A DNA stretch of 64,000 nt from Nocardia sp. NBC_01730 (GTDB lineage: Bacteria > Actinomycetota > Actinomycetes > Mycobacteriales > Mycobacteriaceae), in NCBI RefSeq assembly GCF_035920445.1, contig NZ_CP109162.1:7812001-7876000 (forward strand), read 5' to 3'. The notes below the pieces were generated by a model. The model saw only the letters and a program-made list of their open reading frames with translations. It made no database searches and had not been told where the DNA came from. Position 1 is the first letter of the stretch. Each line of letters begins with the position of its first letter. The translations under genes were made by a program, and so were the position numbers. Below are positions 19,355 through 64,000 of this stretch, piece by piece.

Positions 19355-19499
19355 GTCCAGCTCCTTGTCGTCGAGATGCTGTGTCGTCGGTACCCAGTCT
19401 TCAGCGGCGCGCGGGGCGGGGTAAGGGAGGCTTCTTCCTGGGAAAGCCAGTCCTAGGCAGCCGTAGGATCGACGGTGATGACTGGCACAGTGAATGCGA

Positions 19500-19649
19500 C
19501 AGCGCCGCGACTTCAGGCCTGGAGGCGGAAGCTTGCGTAACCACGGAGGGCCCGGGAGCGGCGCAGATCCAACACAGCGCCGCGACTTCAGGCCTGGAGG
19601 CGGAAGCTTGCGTAACCACGGAGGGCCCGGTAGCGGCGTGGATCGAACA
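19500..19649 (+). repeat. Two tandem 75-bp units at the start of the XRE gene
   Basis: Units 19500-19574 and 19575-19649 agree at 71 of 75 positions and keep an open frame that includes PGGGSLRNHGGPGSG twice. The core (GGAGGCGGAAGC, then TTGCGTAACCACGGAGGG) is related to the 77-bp units between cysH and cysD (32 of 39 core bases identical). It places a GGAGG tract just before a possible TTG start. Confidence 0.85.
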
Positions 19650-20486
19650 CAGGAACTGGCGGCCTTCCTGCGGGCTCGGCGAGAACGCCTGACCCCACGC
19701 GAGCTCGGATTGCCGCAGCGCAGACAGGCGCGGCGGACGCCGGGACTGCGGCGTGAGGAGGTCGCCGAGCGCGCTGGGGTGAGCACGGACTACATCGTGC
19801 GACTGGAACAGGGACGCGGGCTACGGCCGTCGGCGGAGGTACTAGAGGCGCTGTCGCAGGCGCTGCTGCTGAACGCCGACGAGCGCGCCTACCTGTTCGA
19901 CCTGGCGCGGCAGCGGCTGCCGAACAACGGCAAACCGAGCACGGTGCCGGCGCCCGCGCTGGCCATGCTGGTGCGCGATCTGTCGCCGTTGCCCGCGATG
20001 CTGGTGAATCACCGCTACGACATCCTGGCCTGGAACCGGGAGATGGCGCGGCTGATCACCGACTTCGGCGCCCTGCCCGAGCGGCAGCGCAACTCCATGT
20101 GGTTGTGTCTGATGGCCCCGGGCATGCGGGAGTTCTACGTCGAACGGGAACGCATCATTCGCGAGGGCATCGCGGATCTGCGCGCGGCCTGGGCCGCCCA
20201 CCCCGACGACCAGGTGCTGGCCGACCTGATCGGCGAGTTCACCGCGCACAGCCCCGAGTTCGAAGAAGCGTGGGCCCGCCACGACGTCCGAGTGCAGGGA
20301 CGCGGGAACAAGCCGCTACGCCATCCGGTGGTGGGTCCGCTGGTGGTCACCTACGAGGTCTTGATGCCGGTGCAGGATCCCGACCAGCGGATCGTCATCT
20401 ACCGGGCCGCGGACGAGGATTCCCAGACCGCGCTGGATCGACTGGCCGCCGATCCAGCCGTGACCGGGACTACTCCGCCGAGCTGA
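19638..20486 (+). CDS. XRE-family regulator with MmyB-like ligand domain
   Basis: The N-terminal Cro/C1-type HTH contains TPGLRREEVAERAGVSTDYI and RLEQGRGLRPSAEVLEAL. The C-terminal MLTR ligand-binding domain includes MLVNHRYDILAWNREM. This group of actinobacterial regulators often controls a divergent short-chain or aldo/keto reductase, as here. The start is uncertain: the GTG at 19638 gives 282 residues and fits the usual beginning (RTQELAAFLRARRE). However, the frame is open back to an ATG at 19494 through two 75-bp repeats, and a TTG at 19608 preceded by GGAGGCGGAAG would also be possible. It overlaps the convergent gene at 20470 by 17 bp. Confidence 0.88.
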   Translation: MDRTQELAAFLRARRERLTPRELGLPQRRQARRTPGLRREEVAERAGVSTDYIVRLEQGRGLRPSAEVLEALSQALLLNADERAYLFDLARQRLPNNGKPSTVPAPALAMLVRDLSPLPAMLVNHRYDILAWNREMARLITDFGALPERQRNSMWLCLMAPGMREFYVERERIIREGIADLRAAWAAHPDDQVLADLIGEFTAHSPEFEEAWARHDVRVQGRGNKPLRHPVVGPLVVTYEVLMPVQDPDQRIVIYRAADEDSQTALDRLAADPAVTGTTPPS

Positions 20487-37635: not shown

Positions 37636-38478
37636 GTGACTGACAGCAGTAATGCCGGACGCTGGAATTGGTCGTGGCTGCGCGTGACCGGCTCGGTGGG
37701 CCCGCTCGGCATCGCCACCGCGGTGCTGTGGCTCAGCATCATCGTGCTGCTGCCGCTGGCCGCGCTCACCGTGACCAGCTTCGAGGACGGCTGGTCCGGC
37801 TTCTGGGACGCGGTCACCGCACCCGCCGCGCTGGACTCGCTCCGTATCACCGTGCTGGTGTCGGTGGTGGTGGGGCTGATCAACGTGGTGATGGGCACGC
37901 TGATCGCCTGGGTGCTGGTCCGCGACGAGTTCCCCGGCAAAGGCATCGTCAACGCGTTGATCGATCTACCGTTCGCGCTGCCGACAATCGTGGCGAGCAT
38001 CGTGCTGCTAGCGCTGTATGGGCCGCAGAGCCCGATCGATATCCACCTCAACGCCACGCAGCCCGGTCTGGTCGTGGCATTGGCGTTCGTCACCCTGCCG
38101 TTCGTGGTGCGTTCGGTGCAGCCGGTGCTCATCGAGGCCGACCTCGAGGTCGAGCAGGCCGCGCTCTCGCTCGGCGCGGACAACTGGACCACCTTCCGCC
38201 GGATCGTGCTGCCTACGCTGGCGCCCGCGATCATCAGCGGTGGTGGCTTGGCCTTCGCCCGCGCGATCGGCGAATACGGGTCGGTGGTGCTGATCGGCGG
38301 CGCCATTCCGCGCAAGACGGAGATGGCTTCGCAGTACATCCAGAAGCAGATCGAGATCGACCGGCCGGTGAACGCGGCGGCCGTCTCGGTCGCGCTGCTG
38401 GCCATCTCGTTCGCGACGCTGCTTGTGCTGCGGCTGTTCGCCGAACGCGCCGCGCGCAAGGAGCAGGCGACCCGATGA
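37636..38478 (+). CDS. cysT: Sulfate ABC transporter permease CysT
   Basis: The 280-residue inner-membrane permease has about six membrane segments and the EAA loop EQAALSLGADNWTTFRRIVL, which contacts the ATPase. FAREGEYGSVVLIGG-like sequence (ARAIGEYGSVVLIGGAIP) follows it, as in CysT/CysU. The GTG start follows subI by 34 bp. Its stop overlaps the first of two tandem 24-codon frames that separate it from cysW, an arrangement not known from the standard operon. Confidence 0.94.
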   Translation: MTDSSNAGRWNWSWLRVTGSVGPLGIATAVLWLSIIVLLPLAALTVTSFEDGWSGFWDAVTAPAALDSLRITVLVSVVVGLINVVMGTLIAWVLVRDEFPGKGIVNALIDLPFALPTIVASIVLLALYGPQSPIDIHLNATQPGLVVALAFVTLPFVVRSVQPVLIEADLEVEQAALSLGADNWTTFRRIVLPTLAPAIISGGGLAFARAIGEYGSVVLIGGAIPRKTEMASQYIQKQIEIDRPVNAAAVSVALLAISFATLLVLRLFAERAARKEQATR

Positions 38479-38549
38479 GACATAATCGCGCAGCGCTCGT
38501 CGCGTCGCCGGGGTGCGGGAACGCCCGCAGGATGGAGCCGACCCGATGA
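38475..38549 (+). CDS. Tandem linker ORF 1 between cysT and cysW (24 codons)
   Basis: The ATG at 38475 overlaps the cysT stop (ATGA) and its own TGA overlaps the ATG of linker 2 (ATGA). The peptide starts MRHNRAALVASPGCGN and ends RRMEPTR. It is one of two copies with a 71-bp period. One Cys codon is present in the middle. It may act as a translational relay between the two permease genes. Confidence 0.45.
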   Translation: MRHNRAALVASPGCGNARRMEPTR

Positions 38550-38616
38550 GACGTAATCGCGCGGCGCTCGTCGGGCGGCCGGGGTGCGGGAACGCCCGCA
38601 GGATGGAGCCGACCCG
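38475..38616 (+). repeat. Two tandem 71-bp units at the cysT-cysW junction
   Basis: Units 38475-38545 and 38546-38616 agree at 66 of 71 positions. Each begins with ATGAGAC and ends GAGCCGACCCG. That end resembles the tail of cysT (GGCGACCCG before ATGA), so the unit may have arisen by duplication across the junction. Confidence 0.9.
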
Positions 38617-38620
38617 ATGA
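38546..38620 (+). CDS. Tandem linker ORF 2 between cysT and cysW (24 codons)
   Basis: This is the second copy, starting MRRNRAALVGRPGCGN and ending RRMEPTR. Its TGA overlaps the cysW ATG at 38617 (ATGA). The five base differences from copy 1 all preserve the frame, and all 24 codons remain open. Confidence 0.45.
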   Translation: MRRNRAALVGRPGCGNARRMEPTR

Positions 38621-46299: not shown

Positions 46300-48786
46300 A
46301 TGGCCACAGGTCTGGGTTTCAGCATCGGTGCAGTGAACTCCGTGACGGCTTCGGTCACCGGAGAGCACACTCGTCCCGTGGTGCGTTCGCGGCGCACTGC
46401 GGTGACATTCGACAGCACAGGTGGGCTCCGTATCGGCGGAATTTCCCAGTTCGCCATGGCGGTGCAGAATTTCGCCGATCTGAGCCGCGACCCGGATCCC
46501 GTGATCGTCGGGGGCCGTATCTGGTCGCCCGCCAACCTCGTTGCCGCGGTGGTGAACGAACTGCGCGCGGCCGAGCCCGGCGCATGCGCGTCCGGTGTCA
46601 TAGCGACCTATCCGGCAAGCTATTCCGACAAGCAGGTCGCGCTGCTGCGCCAGGCACTGGACCTATCCGGGGGAGGTGATGTGCTGCTGGTTCCCGAACC
46701 GGTGGCGGCGGCCGAATGGTTGGAACACGAGCAGGGCCCGCTGAAGTCGAGCTTCGTCCTGGTCTACGACCTCGGCGGCACCAGCCTCGACGTGACCGTC
46801 GTGCGCGTCGGCCCGGATTGGGACAACCATCCGATGATCGGAAAGCCGGTACGCTCCTACGATTTCGGCGGCAGGCCGCTGGGGTCGATGATCGCGCGGT
46901 ACGCCCCGAACGCCACGTCCCGGTCCGCGGGCGTGTCGATGACGTCGATCGTCGACATCGACGGGCTGCGCACCGCACATGTGCAGGACTCGCTCGAGGT
47001 GGTTCGTGCCTGCGTCCGGGAGGCAGGGATCACGATGTCCGACATCGGTCGTGTCCTCCTGGTCGGTGGCGCGTCCCGGCCCGCCGAAGTGGCGTGCACG
47101 CTCGCCGAACTCGGCCGCCCCGTGGTGATTTCGGCTGACCCCGGGCAGACTGTCGCAGCAGGCGCCGCCCTCATGGCGGCGCGGACCATGGCACTCGGCG
47201 CGTCCGGCGGTCGGGCCGTCGCGCCGCGCGTGGCCGTGTTATCCAGCGCCGCTGTGGTTTCCGCGGTCGCCATGTCGGCAGTCACCGTCTTCGGCGGTCC
47301 CACGGTTCCCGACCTGTCGCCGATGCTCGACCGCCTACCGGATATCGACGCGCCGACCGACGCCATGTTGTACGACGCGCGAGGCGAGGCCGCCGAGGCA
47401 TGGTCCTGGATGGCCGGCCCCGTGCGATGGAACTCAGGGCAGGTGATGCCCTCGTTCGTTTCGCCGCGAGCCTCCGCGTACAGCCGGTTCATCAAGCCGG
47501 CGCCCCGCAGCACGACGTATGGCCCTTCGGCGCCCGACTCTCCGGGCGGCTCGCATCGCGAACCTCGAACCTGCTGCGGCCCGGAGGGATCCCGAGGCGG
47601 GACGTATTCGAACCCGGCCTATTTCGTAAACCCACTGCCGTTCGGTCCGTTCGTCCACCGCATTCCTGAAGTCCCCGATCAGCCGCCGGTGCCTGCTCAG
47701 CCGCCGGTGCCTGCTCAGCCGCCGGTGCCTGCTCAGCCGCCGGTGCCTGCTCAGCCGCCGGTGCCTGCTCAGCCGCCGGTGCCCGCTCAGCCTCCCGTGC
47801 CCGGTCGGCCGCCGGTACCTGCTCAGCCGCCGGTGCCTGCTCAGCCGCCGGTGCCCGCTCAGCCTCCCGTGCCCGGTCGGCCGCCGGTACCTGCTCGGCC
47901 GCCCGCGTCGGGTACCGAGACGCCGCCCGCACCGTCTGTAGGGGTGCCGGTCCCGGCACCGGGCGCGACCGCACCCGCGCCCCAGCCAGGTTCGAGACCT
48001 CAGGTCCCGAATCCCGGGTCCACCCCGACCGTCCCCGGCGCGACAACGCCGGGTCATTCGACCGACGCTCCATCCCCCGGGGGTGTGTCCGGCACTCCGG
48101 CATCCGGAACGGATGGTGGAAACCAGGGCGGCTCCTCCGGCACGACCTCACCGGGCGACTCCTCCTCCGGCGGCGCTTCAACCGGTGGCGCGTCGTCGGA
48201 AACGTCTGATGGAACCTCAACCGGTGGAACATCTTCGGGCAACGGCACCCCCGGCAGTACCACCTCCGGAGGTTTCTCGACAGGTGGTTCCTCCTCGGAC
48301 AGTTCTACTGGTGGTCCCGCGGGTGCGTCGTCGGGTAATTCCACAGGAGGAACGTCGACCGGTGGCTCCACGTCGGGTGGTAGTTCTGGGCGTCCGTCTT
48401 CCGGTGGTGCGTCTTCGGCCGGAAACTTGCCGGGCGGTTCGTCTTCCGGTGGTGCGGCGGGGCGTCCTGGTTTGGGCGGGGGGTCGACCTCCGGCGGTGC
48501 GTCGTCCGGTGGGTCTACGTCGGGTGGTGGTACTGGGCGTCCGTCTTCCGGTGGTGCGTCTTCGGCCGGAAACTTGCCGGGCGGTTCGTCTTCCGGTGGT
48601 GCGGCGGGGCGTCCTGGTTTGGGCGGGGGGTCGACCTCCGGCGGTGCGTCGTCCGGTGGGTCTACGTCGGGTGGTAGTTCTGGGCGTCCGTCTTCCGGTG
48701 GTGCGTCTTCGGCCGGAAACTCGCCGGGCGGTTCGTTTTCCGGTGGCGTCGGTGGCGCAGGCGGGGGCGGGGCTCGCGGTCGTTAG
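46300..48786 (+). CDS. Hsp70-like protein with membrane helix and long Pro- then Ser/Gly-rich tail
   Basis: The 828-residue protein is a paralogue of the one at 40976. The N-terminal 300 residues are an Hsp70-type ATPase-like domain: MATGLGFSIGAVNSV at the start, VPEPVAAAEWLEHE, VYDLGGTSLDVTVVRVG and VLLVGGASRPAEV. A membrane segment (RVAVLSSAAVVSAVAMSAVT) lies at about 310-330. The rest is extracytoplasmic if the helix spans the membrane: about 130 ordinary residues, a run of QPPVPA repeats (about 461-534), then Ser/Gly/Thr-rich sequence with 49-residue repeats to the end. The substrate-binding half of Hsp70 is absent. This may be a sensor or cell-wall-spanning protein; the function is unknown. 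Confidence 0.82.
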   Translation: MATGLGFSIGAVNSVTASVTGEHTRPVVRSRRTAVTFDSTGGLRIGGISQFAMAVQNFADLSRDPDPVIVGGRIWSPANLVAAVVNELRAAEPGACASGVIATYPASYSDKQVALLRQALDLSGGGDVLLVPEPVAAAEWLEHEQGPLKSSFVLVYDLGGTSLDVTVVRVGPDWDNHPMIGKPVRSYDFGGRPLGSMIARYAPNATSRSAGVSMTSIVDIDGLRTAHVQDSLEVVRACVREAGITMSDIGRVLLVGGASRPAEVACTLAELGRPVVISADPGQTVAAGAALMAARTMALGASGGRAVAPRVAVLSSAAVVSAVAMSAVTVFGGPTVPDLSPMLDRLPDIDAPTDAMLYDARGEAAEAWSWMAGPVRWNSGQVMPSFVSPRASAYSRFIKPAPRSTTYGPSAPDSPGGSHREPRTCCGPEGSRGGTYSNPAYFVNPLPFGPFVHRIPEVPDQPPVPAQPPVPAQPPVPAQPPVPAQPPVPAQPPVPAQPPVPGRPPVPAQPPVPAQPPVPAQPPVPGRPPVPARPPASGTETPPAPSVGVPVPAPGATAPAPQPGSRPQVPNPGSTPTVPGATTPGHSTDAPSPGGVSGTPASGTDGGNQGGSSGTTSPGDSSSGGASTGGASSETSDGTSTGGTSSGNGTPGSTTSGGFSTGGSSSDSSTGGPAGASSGNSTGGTSTGGSTSGGSSGRPSSGGASSAGNLPGGSSSGGAAGRPGLGGGSTSGGASSGGSTSGGGTGRPSSGGASSAGNLPGGSSSGGAAGRPGLGGGSTSGGASSGGSTSGGSSGRPSSGGASSAGNSPGGSFSGGVGGAGGGGARGR
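47680..47902 (+). repeat. 18-bp tandem repeats encoding QPPVPA
   Basis: About twelve units of the 18-bp string CAGCCGCCGGTGCCTGCT and close variants occur in frame, some reading RPPVPA or QPPVPG. They form a rigid Pro-rich spacer, as seen in wall-spanning proteins. Confidence 0.9.
48388..48760 (+). repeat. 147-bp tandem repeats in the Ser/Gly-rich tail
   Basis: Units start at 48388, 48535 and 48682 (the last is partial), period 147 bp or 49 codons, almost identical at the DNA level. Each begins GRPSSGGASSAGNLPGGSSS. The near identity indicates recent expansion or active homogenisation. Confidence 0.92.
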
Positions 48787-62097: not shown

Positions 62098-63030
62098 TCA
62101 GAAATAACCCTCTCGTTTGCGGTCTTCCATCGCGGCCTCCGACACTCGGTCGTCCCCACGAGTCGCACCGCGTTCGGTCAGACGAGACGCGGCGACCTCG
62201 GCGAGGATCGCGTCGTTGTCGGCTGCTTCGGAAAGAATGGCGCCGGTGGACGATCCGTCACCGACGGTGCGGTAGCGCACCGACCGGGTCTGCAGCACCT
62301 CGCCGTCGCGCGGGCCGCCCCACACTCCCGGCGTCATCCACATGCCGTCGCGCTGGTACACCGGACGCTCGTGCGTGTAGTAGATGCTCGCCAGATCGAT
62401 GTCCTCGCGGGCGATGTAGCGCCAGATGTCCAGCTCGGTCCAGTTGCTCAGCGGGAATACGCGCACATGTTCGCCCGGTGCGTGCCGCCCGTTGTAGAGG
62501 TTCCACAGCTCCGGGCGCTGCCGCTTCGGGTCCCACTGTCCGAACGCGTTGCGCAGTGAGAAGATCCGCTCCTTGGCGCGCGAGCGCTCCTCATCGCGAC
62601 GGCCACCGCCGAATACGGCGTCGAAGCGGTTCTCGCTGATCGCGTCCAGCAGCGGGACGGTCTGCAGCGGGTTGCGGATGCCGTCGGGACGCTCGGTGAG
62701 CCGCCCGTCGGCCAGATAGTCCTCCACCTTGGCCACGTACAGGCGCAGGCCGTAGCGCTCGACCACCTTGTCCCGGAACTCGAGCACCTCGGGCAGGTTG
62801 TGCCCGGTATCCACGTGCAGCAGCGCGAATGGCAGCGGCGCGGGCCAGAAGGCTTTGAGCGCAAGGTGCAGCAGCACGGTGGAGTCCTTGCCGCCGGAGA
62901 ACAGGATCACCGGCCGCTCGAACTCGCCCGCCACCTCGCGGAAGACGTGGATCGACTCGGACTCCAGCGCGGCGAGCGTGTCGAAATCGCTGATGCCGAG
63001 GAAACGTTCGCTTGGGATGGTTTCGGTCAT
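62098..63030 (-). CDS. cysD: Sulfate adenylyltransferase subunit 2
   Basis: This catalytic subunit forms adenosine 5'-phosphosulfate from ATP and sulfate. The 310-residue protein has the PP-loop VILFSGGKDSTVLLHLA near residues 40-56, then LLHVDTGHNLPEVLEFRD, and WTELDIWRYIAREDIDLASI in the second half. Its ATG at 63030 overlaps the stop of the second of two tandem 26-codon frames that separate it from cysH. The first residues, MTE, match the first residues of both linker peptides. Confidence 0.96.
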   Translation of the reverse strand: MTETIPSERFLGISDFDTLAALESESIHVFREVAGEFERPVILFSGGKDSTVLLHLALKAFWPAPLPFALLHVDTGHNLPEVLEFRDKVVERYGLRLYVAKVEDYLADGRLTERPDGIRNPLQTVPLLDAISENRFDAVFGGGRRDEERSRAKERIFSLRNAFGQWDPKRQRPELWNLYNGRHAPGEHVRVFPLSNWTELDIWRYIAREDIDLASIYYTHERPVYQRDGMWMTPGVWGGPRDGEVLQTRSVRYRTVGDGSSTGAILSEAADNDAILAEVAASRLTERGATRGDDRVSEAAMEDRKREGYF

Positions 63031-63107
63031 GCTGTGTCCCTCTCTGCATGCCCGAGGTGCCCTGCGTGGTTACGCATGCTGCCTCCTCCGGGCCCTGACT
63101 CGGTCAT
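63027..63107 (-). CDS. Tandem linker ORF 2 between cysH and cysD (26 codons)
   Basis: The frame starts at the ATG overlapping the stop of linker 1 and ends in a TGA overlapping the cysD ATG (ATGA both times). The peptide starts MTESGPGGGSMRNHAGHLGH and ends ERDTA. An internal ATG preceded by GGAGGAGG (reading MRNHAG) offers a second, better-placed start. It has a 77-bp period with linker 1. Confidence 0.45.
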   Translation of the reverse strand: MTESGPGGGSMRNHAGHLGHAERDTA

Positions 63108-63184
63108 GCTGTGTCTTTCTTTGCATGCCCGAGGTGCCCTGCGTGGTTACGCATGCTGCCTCCTCCGGGCCCTGACTCGGTCAT
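63031..63184 (-). repeat. Two tandem 77-bp units at the cysH-cysD junction
   Basis: Units 63108-63184 and 63031-63107 agree at 74 of 77 positions. The core GGAGGAGGCAGC, then ATGCGTAACCACGCAGGG, is related to the 75-bp units at 19500-19649. Confidence 0.92.
63104..63184 (-). CDS. Tandem linker ORF 1 between cysH and cysD (26 codons)
   Basis: The ATG at 63184 overlaps the cysH stop (ATGA). The peptide starts MTESGPGGGSMRNHAGHLGH and ends KKDTA. It differs from linker 2 by three bases, all in the last few codons. Together the two frames keep ribosomes in a continuous stop/start relay from cysH to cysD. Confidence 0.45.
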   Translation of the reverse strand: MTESGPGGGSMRNHAGHLGHAKKDTA

Positions 63185-63909
63185 GCTGTGTGCAACCCGC
63201 ATTCGGTCTTGGCGAGGCCGGCCCAGCGGCCGCTTCGCGGATCGGATCCCGCCTCCGGCTTTCGTGTGCACGGAGCGCAGCCGATAGACGGATATCCCTC
63301 CTCCACCAGGGGATTGACCAGGATGCCGTGCTGTTCGATAAAGTCCTGCATCTCGTCGTCGGACCACGGCGCGATCGGGTTGATCTTCACCAGCCCGAAC
63401 GCCTCGTCGAACGAGATGAGCGGCGCGTTCGCCCGCGTCGGCGCCTCGACCCGGCGGATGCCGGTGACCCAGGCGTTGTACCCGGCGAGCGATTTCTGCA
63501 ACGGGGCGACCTTGCGCAGCCGGCAGCACTCGTTCGGCTCGCGGGCGAACAAATCCATGCCCAGCAGCCGATCTTGTTCGGCAACAGTGTGTTCTGGGCG
63601 GACGTCGATCACGTTCACCCCGTACACCACCTCTACCGCGTCCCTCGTGCCGATGGTCTCGGCGAAGTGGTAGCCGGTGTCTAAGAAAAGCACCGACAGC
63701 GCCTCCGATTTGTCCTTATGGACCTCGGCGGCCAAGTGCACCAGCACGCCGTCCTGCATGTTGGAGGCGACGATGTAGCTCGCACCGAAGGTGTCTTCGG
63801 TCCACTGCAGGAGTTCGCTCGCCGAGGCGCCGTCGAGCTCGGCCGCGCCGCGTGCGGCGATGGCTCGTAGCTCGTCTTCGGACAGCTTTTCCGCGAGTTG
63901 GGTTGTCAC
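63181..63909 (-). CDS. cysH: Adenosine 5'-phosphosulfate reductase
   Basis: CysH reduces APS to sulfite with thioredoxin. The 242-residue protein has the sulfonucleotide-binding region SVLFLDTGYHFAETIGTRDA. Four iron-sulfur Cys lie in ECCRLRKV and IGCAPCTRK, which marks the APS-specific type. The catalytic Cys is in the C-terminal KTECGLH. The GTG at 63909 follows GGGAGATC and removes an upstream stretch without homology. It directly follows nirA, as Rv2391-Rv2392, and its stop overlaps the first linker frame. Confidence 0.95.
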   Translation of the reverse strand: MTTQLAEKLSEDELRAIAARGAAELDGASASELLQWTEDTFGASYIVASNMQDGVLVHLAAEVHKDKSEALSVLFLDTGYHFAETIGTRDAVEVVYGVNVIDVRPEHTVAEQDRLLGMDLFAREPNECCRLRKVAPLQKSLAGYNAWVTGIRRVEAPTRANAPLISFDEAFGLVKINPIAPWSDDEMQDFIEQHGILVNPLVEEGYPSIGCAPCTRKPEAGSDPRSGRWAGLAKTECGLHTA

Positions 63910-63929
63910 AATTGATCTCCCGTCGAGAC

Positions 63930-64000
63930 TTATTTCAAGTCGGCTTCGTCGGCGCGAACCGCCCACTGGGCGAATCGCTCACCGTCCTCGCGGTGCTTGA
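63930..64000 (-). CDS. nirA: C-terminal end of sulfite reductase (NirA), partial
   Basis: The last 22 codons of a gene that continues past the right edge read HREDGERFAQWAVRADEADL before a TAA. The ending resembles the end of ferredoxin-sulfite reductases, and the position 20 bp upstream of cysH matches Rv2391 (nirA). The identity rests mainly on context. Confidence 0.6.
   Translation of the reverse strand, partial: KHREDGERFAQWAVRADEADLK

Follow-up and report, generated by a model that had tools for sequence, protein, structure and literature searches.

The two 77-bp repeats that separate cysH from cysD in Nocardia sp. NBC_01730 are best read as a tandem pair of units of a small, non-autonomous mobile element of Nocardia resembling the mycobacterial interspersed repetitive units (MIRU), an interpretation to which we assign a probability of roughly 0.8. 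A unit placed on an ATGA holds an open frame from its left ATGA to its right ATGA; thus, the upstream stop directly precedes a start, and the downstream start lies inside the stop of the unit. Filled and empty sites coexist between species. The hairpin arms of the unit match each other within each locus, with a sequence that varies from one locus to the next. In several cases, the 3' arm complements bases that the target contained while still empty.

The junction is composed of the following parts, with positions given for the window, i.e. the whole 64-kb stretch of DNA that was analysed:

63181–63966, minus strand: cysH ORF (ORF list and NCBIfam); start codon uncertain, last codons CAC ACA GCA TGA
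63104–63184, minus strand: micro-ORF of unit 1, encoding MTESGPGGGSMRNHAGHLGHAKKDTA and a stop; its ATGA are common to the cysH stop and to unit 2
63027–63107, minus strand: micro-ORF of unit 2, encoding MTESGPGGGSMRNHAGHLGHAERDTA and a stop; the stop ATGA overlaps the cysD start
63134–63173, minus strand: conserved core of unit 1 (profile match and alignment)
63057–63096, minus strand: conserved core of unit 2 (profile match and alignment)
63176–63186, minus strand: outer (5') arm of unit 1, GCATGACCGAG (sequence and arm-pairing count)
63123–63133, minus strand: inner (3') arm of unit 1, CTCGGGCATGC, pairing with the 5' arm with one A-G mismatch
63099–63109, minus strand: outer (5') arm of unit 2 (sequence and arm-pairing count)
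63046–63056, minus strand: inner (3') arm of unit 2 (sequence and arm-pairing count)
63031–63045, minus strand: spacer of unit 2, AGAGAGGGACACAGC, purine-rich and Shine-Dalgarno-like by eye, 5' of the cysD ATG
62098–63030, minus strand: cysD (TIGR02039)

The flanking proteins match CysH, CysD and then CysN in NCBIfam, and the terminal bases of the cysH ORF read ATGA on the minus strand. TRF reports a period of 77 with 2.2 copies and 96% matches at 63023–63191. Together with the ORF list this agrees with the first-pass annotation, which had described two 77-bp copies, each a 26-codon frame, with ATGA at every joint from cysH to cysD. A self-contained internal start, encoding MRNHAGHLGH, had also been proposed for each frame. 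The underlying motif, GGAGGAGG followed by CAGC and ATG, is present in both copies of the window, but the ATG is found in only one of 24 occupied cysH–cysD junctions; the triplet at this position is CTG alone in 13, CTG and CAG in one, CCG in three, GTG in three, CTA in one and TCG in one, and is unscored in one. An Rfam scan of the window returned no match at the gathering threshold. The predicted fold of the cysH–cysD unit is unremarkable (z −1.15), and that of one repeat subtype does not surpass shuffled sequences (z 0.24).

Chains of at least two A/GTGA-linked micro-ORFs of 15–40 codons between long ORFs, sought in the window only, occur at two places, the cysH–cysD junction and 38475–38617. 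The first-pass annotation had suggested a count against a shuffled model; for the window, sequences resampled with a third-order Markov model contain 0.43 such chains on average and at most 4 in 60 resamplings. The criterion by itself is therefore weak evidence. One-step micro-ORF chains, of which the window holds 8, compare with a resampled mean of 4.6 and a maximum of 13. It is the genome-wide dispersal of the unit, not its chaining, that decisively settles the reality of the repeat.

The other chain belongs to a different element:

38475–38620, plus strand: second repeat, period 71, with an ATGA relay in the other sulfur operon (TRF, genome matches and chain scan)

The surrounding genes are presumably a sulfate-permease-like pair. 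The sequence here had been called unrelated to that between cysH and cysD, and correctly so, as it is part of a separate dispersed repeat with 16 genome matches at E < 0.005, some of which are adjacent units of one array. The copies inspected open with ATGAG and have CTCATC, or a sequence close to it, inside; the relay was tested for the copy at 38475 alone. A Y1-transposase-like fragment (G000:C1:4637793-4637885; L501) lies about 1.3 kb from copies of this second repeat at 4636287–4636475. The window also contains another array of the cysH–cysD family:

19499–19652, plus strand: array of the cysH–cysD repeat family, period 75 (TRF, sequence and profile matches)

It has GCGCCGCG-type arms in place of ATGA and is located, as judged by eye, upstream of a helix-turn-helix-like ORF. 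Long tandem arrays at 47679–47903 and 48353–48746 (18/72 bp and 147 bp) resemble repeat-rich segments of proteins.

The cysH–cysD unit is 71–78 bp long and consists of a hairpin, in which two short arms surround a conserved core of about 40 nt, and of a spacer that usually ends in ACACAGC. In the 8.68-Mb genome of the strain, the 158-bp junction used as a query has 46 matches, and a profile (R1) of the 43-nt core has at least 127 at E ≤ 1, a count that is likely an underestimate with the best 150 of 11527 candidates scored. Among the candidates scored, the 112 best R1 matches (down to E 6.9e-6) form 65 loci, of which 37 are single, 16 double, 8 triple, 1 fourfold and 3 fivefold. Judging from the protein ends, we take the neighbours of other copies to include mtrA/mtrB-, atpG/atpD- and rpoA/rplQ-like genes as well as genes of ABC transporters. 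Part of the copies sits inside coding frames, a class called heuristically by GC3, which gave 8 sense and 2 antisense loci in one run and 27, some of them doubtful, in the other; no conclusion is drawn from these numbers. Two loci of the strain, L105 and L115, possess the same rare arm (GGTCTGTGCGG, GTCTGTGCGG) and are seemingly in frame within polyketide-synthase-like genes.

Beyond this strain, the exact core pattern is found in at least 120 stretches of named genomes, and all 80 named among the matches listed are from Nocardia. A 150-bp stretch of the junction is matched at E ≤ 1e-12, anywhere in the genome, in 108 of 148 genomes of the genus. R1 matches occur in 19 of 151 sampled genomes of the family. 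Ten of these 19 are from the same genus, G053 is from another one, and each of the other eight has one weak match. Matches per genome range from 12 to at least 42 in the 10 genomes of the genus, the present one included, and number at least 42 in G053. As far as tested, the core is thus shared by Nocardia and one or more further genera of the family. Viral contigs contain no exact match to the core, and phage records have no stretch similar to the repeat; plasmid records gave one match, a 2.66-Mb replicon of Nocardia farcinica with four places, the best of which is without an annotated gene. For PF01797, the family of REP-associated tyrosine transposases and the one transposase family sought, the genome has three incomplete matches that pass the cut-off (covering 58, 43 and 30 of 121 positions), and nothing links them to the repeats. 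Our search of the open-access literature found no repeat family of this kind in Nocardia, and passages of PMC13186243 and PMC10969869 make no mention of one.

Comparison of the cysH–cysD junction between genomes provided the empty sites. Junctions were fetched via CysD from genomes of the genus, mainly those with the best CysD matches; of 112 loci obtained, 110 show the cysH end, corresponding to 108 genomes (G018 and G031 being counted once). The joint is empty in 82 of the 108 genomes, and in all 82 the two genes overlap directly by ATGA. One or more units are present in 24 genomes (one unit in 18, two in four, three in one, and a degenerate form in L329), while two genomes (L297 and L336) have short in-frame 18-bp pieces that look like scars of an insertion. 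Two such 18-bp pieces adjoin a full unit in L301. The copy-number comparison that had been suggested for this junction thus yields 0–3 units, the genomes differing by whole units. In L358, the arms fit the cysD start of that genome, ATGACCA, and not ATGACCG, and this cysD start resembles that of a group of empty relatives; from these sequences the unit looks like a separate insertion at the same point.

Filled and empty forms were also found at other sites, where a scripted comparison covered the loci that fit the flank patterns (10 of 30 for the L136 site, 14 of 30 for the L125 site and 27 of 30 for the aroE-like site). At a joint between what we take to be ABC-transporter genes (L136 site), the empty L438 reads GTGTGGGATGACGG and filled sites carry a 71-bp insert flanked by ATGA. 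At the L125-site joint, empty sites read, for example, CTGGGCCTGTGACC, and the filled site of our strain has a GCCTG direct repeat. Two sites other than cysH–cysD therefore show, where stop and start meet, an insert flanked by a 4–5-bp direct repeat, ATGA in one case and GCCTG in the other. Within a presumably aroE-like gene, the same stretch is 72 nt longer in four genomes that bear the core than in twelve that lack it, and eleven more genomes without the core have intermediate lengths. At a fourth joint, our strain alone among those read has the unit, the empty forms being GATATGAGCGAGG or GGTATGAGT. Direct repeats extending past the start codon are weak overall (5.00 versus 4.56, sd 0.18, for 41 unusual loci; 6.64 versus 6.40, sd 0.23, for 38 ATGA loci), and terminal direct repeats of 7–9 bp were set aside as a general rule because the locus scores support them weakly. 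Other short inserts or degenerate forms, unlike the family core, occur at ATGA in L415, L419 and L413 (ABC-transporter joint) and in L333 (cysH–cysD), which may mean that certain stop/start joints attract more than one type of element.

Occupation of a joint leaves the path of translation formally open in most cases. cysH ends in ATGA in 21 of the 26 occupied or scarred cysH–cysD junctions, and 20 of these 21, which are related by descent and not independent events, relay or fuse in frame into cysD. The ATGA chaining, the 3n−1 periods and the retention of phase on copy multiplication read from the window by the first-pass annotation are borne out in this comparison. Some of the fusions are 159-nt frames built of 78-bp units. 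In L358, the frame overshoots the usual cysD ATG, and a restart is possible only at a later GTG. The remaining five junctions have CTGA, the overlapping start being lost.

Within the genome of the strain, chains were tested at 22 of the 65 loci, selected on the basis of the left arm or the flanking ORFs. At fifteen of them, a long upstream ORF terminates in the A/GTGA of the unit and a co-directional ORF follows downstream, and at 14 of these the chain reaches an in-frame start of the downstream ORF by relay or fusion, a count that accepts any in-frame ATG, GTG or TTG as start, which favours success, and that has no formal null. Outside the 15 are L116, which has no co-directional gene next to it and no relay, L107, L121 and L158, which lack a long upstream ORF and all relay, and L125, L126 and L148, which have no A/GTGA at the tested place. 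Steps between units are 71, 74 or 77, except for a step of 75 in L135 and L150, where the unit is fused to the next frame, and one of 72 in L160. L160 is also the exception among the 15 loci: its last frame is 4 nt longer and overlaps the gene by 8 nt instead of 4. Core-to-core periods are all 3n−1 in four, all 3n in three and all 3n+1 in two of nine multi-copy loci classed as other, and all 3n in seven and 3n−1 in two of nine loci placed in ORFs by the heuristic GC3 call. The core is read in three frames (RRRQ.., GGGS.RNHGG or EAAARVTTQG), and the frame that meets TAA or TGA in GCGTAACC/GCGTGACC is open in units with GCGTCACC or an extra base. As all three reading frames of the core are in use and yet the chain nearly always meets the next start, it is phase, not peptide, that is kept, and with it, to judge from these comparisons, the passage of ribosomes appears to be preserved. 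Ribosomes finishing cysH would restart on the micro-ORF and then pass to cysD, a handover that may allow the insertion to be tolerated in a coupled operon; the micro-ORF peptide itself would be without function.

In 19 units, of which 18 have an arm containing ATGA, the two arms pair at 172 of 190 positions, compared with 161.3 (sd 2.5) after exchange of arms between units, and one of 2000 shuffles reaches 172. A wider set, assembled from the 65 regions of our strain and 120 loci of named genomes, comprises 183 distinct copies or arrays, of which 153 are left once those with similar flanks are taken out. The arm score of 119 non-redundant single copies is 7.46 for own pairs versus 4.86 (sd 0.12; 40 shuffles) between loci, and 41 single copies with unusual arms score 7.15 versus 4.49 (sd 0.18) after exchange; examples are CAGTGCTCCCG/CGGGAGCACTG (L238) and CGGCCCGATCGG/CCGATCGGGCCG (L243). 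Own-pair scores above exchanged scores indicate that the two arms change jointly from locus to locus. Consensus RNA folding of a mixed alignment detected little covariation (term −0.3), probably because MAFFT misaligned the arms.

The 3' arm also fits the site as it was before insertion. In L440, the arm CACAGGCCCAG is the complement of 11 exact bases, CTGGGCCTGTG, in empty relatives; the left flank of L440 today reads CTCGG, one base off. At the ABC-transporter joint, the arm ATCCCAC is complementary to the target GTGGGAT, and at the fourth joint, the arm CGCTCATACC is complementary to GGTATGAGCG, the empty forms containing GATATGAGCG or GGTATGAG. Over six filled/empty pairs, the target score averages 7.6 at the own site versus 4.9 off-site, where the off-site values include cross-scores of 11 and 6 from a pair with a common empty site; in two of the six pairs (L136 and, in our strain, L125) the top-scoring complement differs from the stretch named by eye. 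Where the target is TCATGA (L358 and L322, and in our strain L131), the arm still ends in CATGC, so that the match is incomplete. Locus-varying, self-matching arms whose inner member is complementary to the pre-insertion target are, as a feature, new here.

Several other explanations of the cysH–cysD chain have to be weighed. That ATGA overlaps are simply common in GC-rich genomes and the repeats a random duplication would agree with the one-step chains of the window, which lie inside the resampled spread, but a conserved core dispersed in many genomes of the genus and the existence of empty sites refute a chance duplication and leave this explanation practically no weight. It is very improbable that the micro-ORFs form a sulfur- or cysteine-responsive leader that senses the sulfur supply and controls cysD. 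Such a leader would make sense of two sulfur-gene joints in one 64-kb window that bear these chains; however, the same unit occupies 65 places in the genome beside varied neighbours and is absent from cysH–cysD in 82 of 108 genomes, two facts that also leave a sulfur-specific relay, as a reading of the first-pass annotation, unsupported. Moreover, neither of the two frames contains a cysteine codon, and no peptide is conserved, given that other loci use three different frames of the core. We also consider it unlikely that the hairpin or an added ribosome-binding site tunes the downstream gene with copy number as a dial. The purine-rich end of the spacer just 5' of the next ATG, the range of 0–3 copies at cysH–cysD and compensatory arm changes between genomes at this one joint (CACATGA/CATGTG in L053, L325 and L326; CCTGA/CAGGC in L047, L059, L330, L337 and L318) would be compatible with tuning, but the patchy presence of the unit, the scar-like 18-bp pieces in L297 and L336 and beside the full unit of L301, and the location of part of the copies inside ORFs argue against it.

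With a mobile repeat as the preferred reading of the junction, the fit between arm and site calls for an explanation of its own: the arm may guide the element to its target, be written from the target or be corrected to it later. Quasi-palindrome correction is a template switch between arms that turns an imperfect palindrome into a perfect one, and it is a serious possibility, though short of likely, that polymerase template switching of this type perfects the palindrome after insertion with no special transposition step. At cysH–cysD, TCATGA prevails among empty sites and GCATGA among occupied ones, as would be expected had the flank been adjusted to the arm CATGC, and compensatory arm pairs arise within one joint. 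L440 speaks against later correction, since its 11-base match is to the empty-site sequence and its own left flank is now one base off; an arm that fits the empty site and not the present flank points to an early, target-led copy. Slightly less probable is the tentative proposal that insertion copies some 7–11 bases of the target, inverted, into the 3' arm of the element, each copy thereby mirroring its site. If true, this would amount to a guide that reprograms itself or to a hairpin step templated by the target, and would leave a readable record of the sequence before insertion; we know of no small bacterial repeat with such a target-copying step. Doubtful, in our view, is a fixed guide, i.e. 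a 3' arm that chooses complementary targets with nothing being rewritten. It would agree with the fact that certain arm classes (GCATGACCGG, GCATGAGCGG, GGCGGGAGCG) and ATGA targets recur, but many loci with one-off arms are still self-matching, and at the L125 site two occupied versions both fit the local target, with offsets that differ slightly between them.

Mycobacterial interspersed repetitive units were reportedly described by Supply et al. in 1997. In the passages of PMC12548453 that deal with them, they are mobile, inserted at start codons and equipped with an ORF coupled by a −4 spacing, with little effect on expression; PMC2734929 gives a length of 40–100 bp and 41 places in strain H37Rv. 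The Nocardia units of 71–78 bp are likewise scattered and often in tandem (112 matches at 65 loci, 28 of them with 2–5 copies), lie on stop/start overlaps with an ORF of their own coupled at −4 nt (relay or in-frame fusion in 14 of 15 and 20 of 21 cases) with many copies elsewhere, and appear mobile on account of the empty sites in relatives. They differ from MIRU in host and, as far as the R1 search of 151 genomes of the family goes, apparently in sequence family; the locus-varying, self-complementary and target-fitting arms of the Nocardia repeat may be a further difference. With REP and REPIN elements the family has in common short, scattered hairpin repeats in about a hundred copies or more, but the Nocardia repeat carries a frame and is sense-oriented on stop/start overlaps at relay joints. 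Like a MITE it is a small non-autonomous insert, with a target-site duplication at L136 (ATGA) and L125 (GCCTG) that is weak elsewhere, but a fixed terminal inverted repeat is missing, the arms varying by locus around a constant centre. Rickettsia palindromic elements are palindromic repeats that are also inserted in frame within genes. They belong to another host, and the best-studied sites of the Nocardia repeat are stop/start joints. These elements are named in the abbreviation list of PMC10969869.

A Nocardia counterpart of MIRU may be of practical and of mechanistic interest. MIRU-type repeats are widely used in strain typing, and the arrays described here could serve the same purpose in Nocardia. 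For MIRU-type repeats, we know of no mechanism of movement. With about a hundred copies in one genome, counterpart filled and empty sites in many species, and arms mirroring their targets, the Nocardia family makes the insertion step testable by strain comparison and by plasmid assays of a simple kind. The phase rule seen where genes join, in turn, is a natural test of how strongly selection acts on translational coupling.
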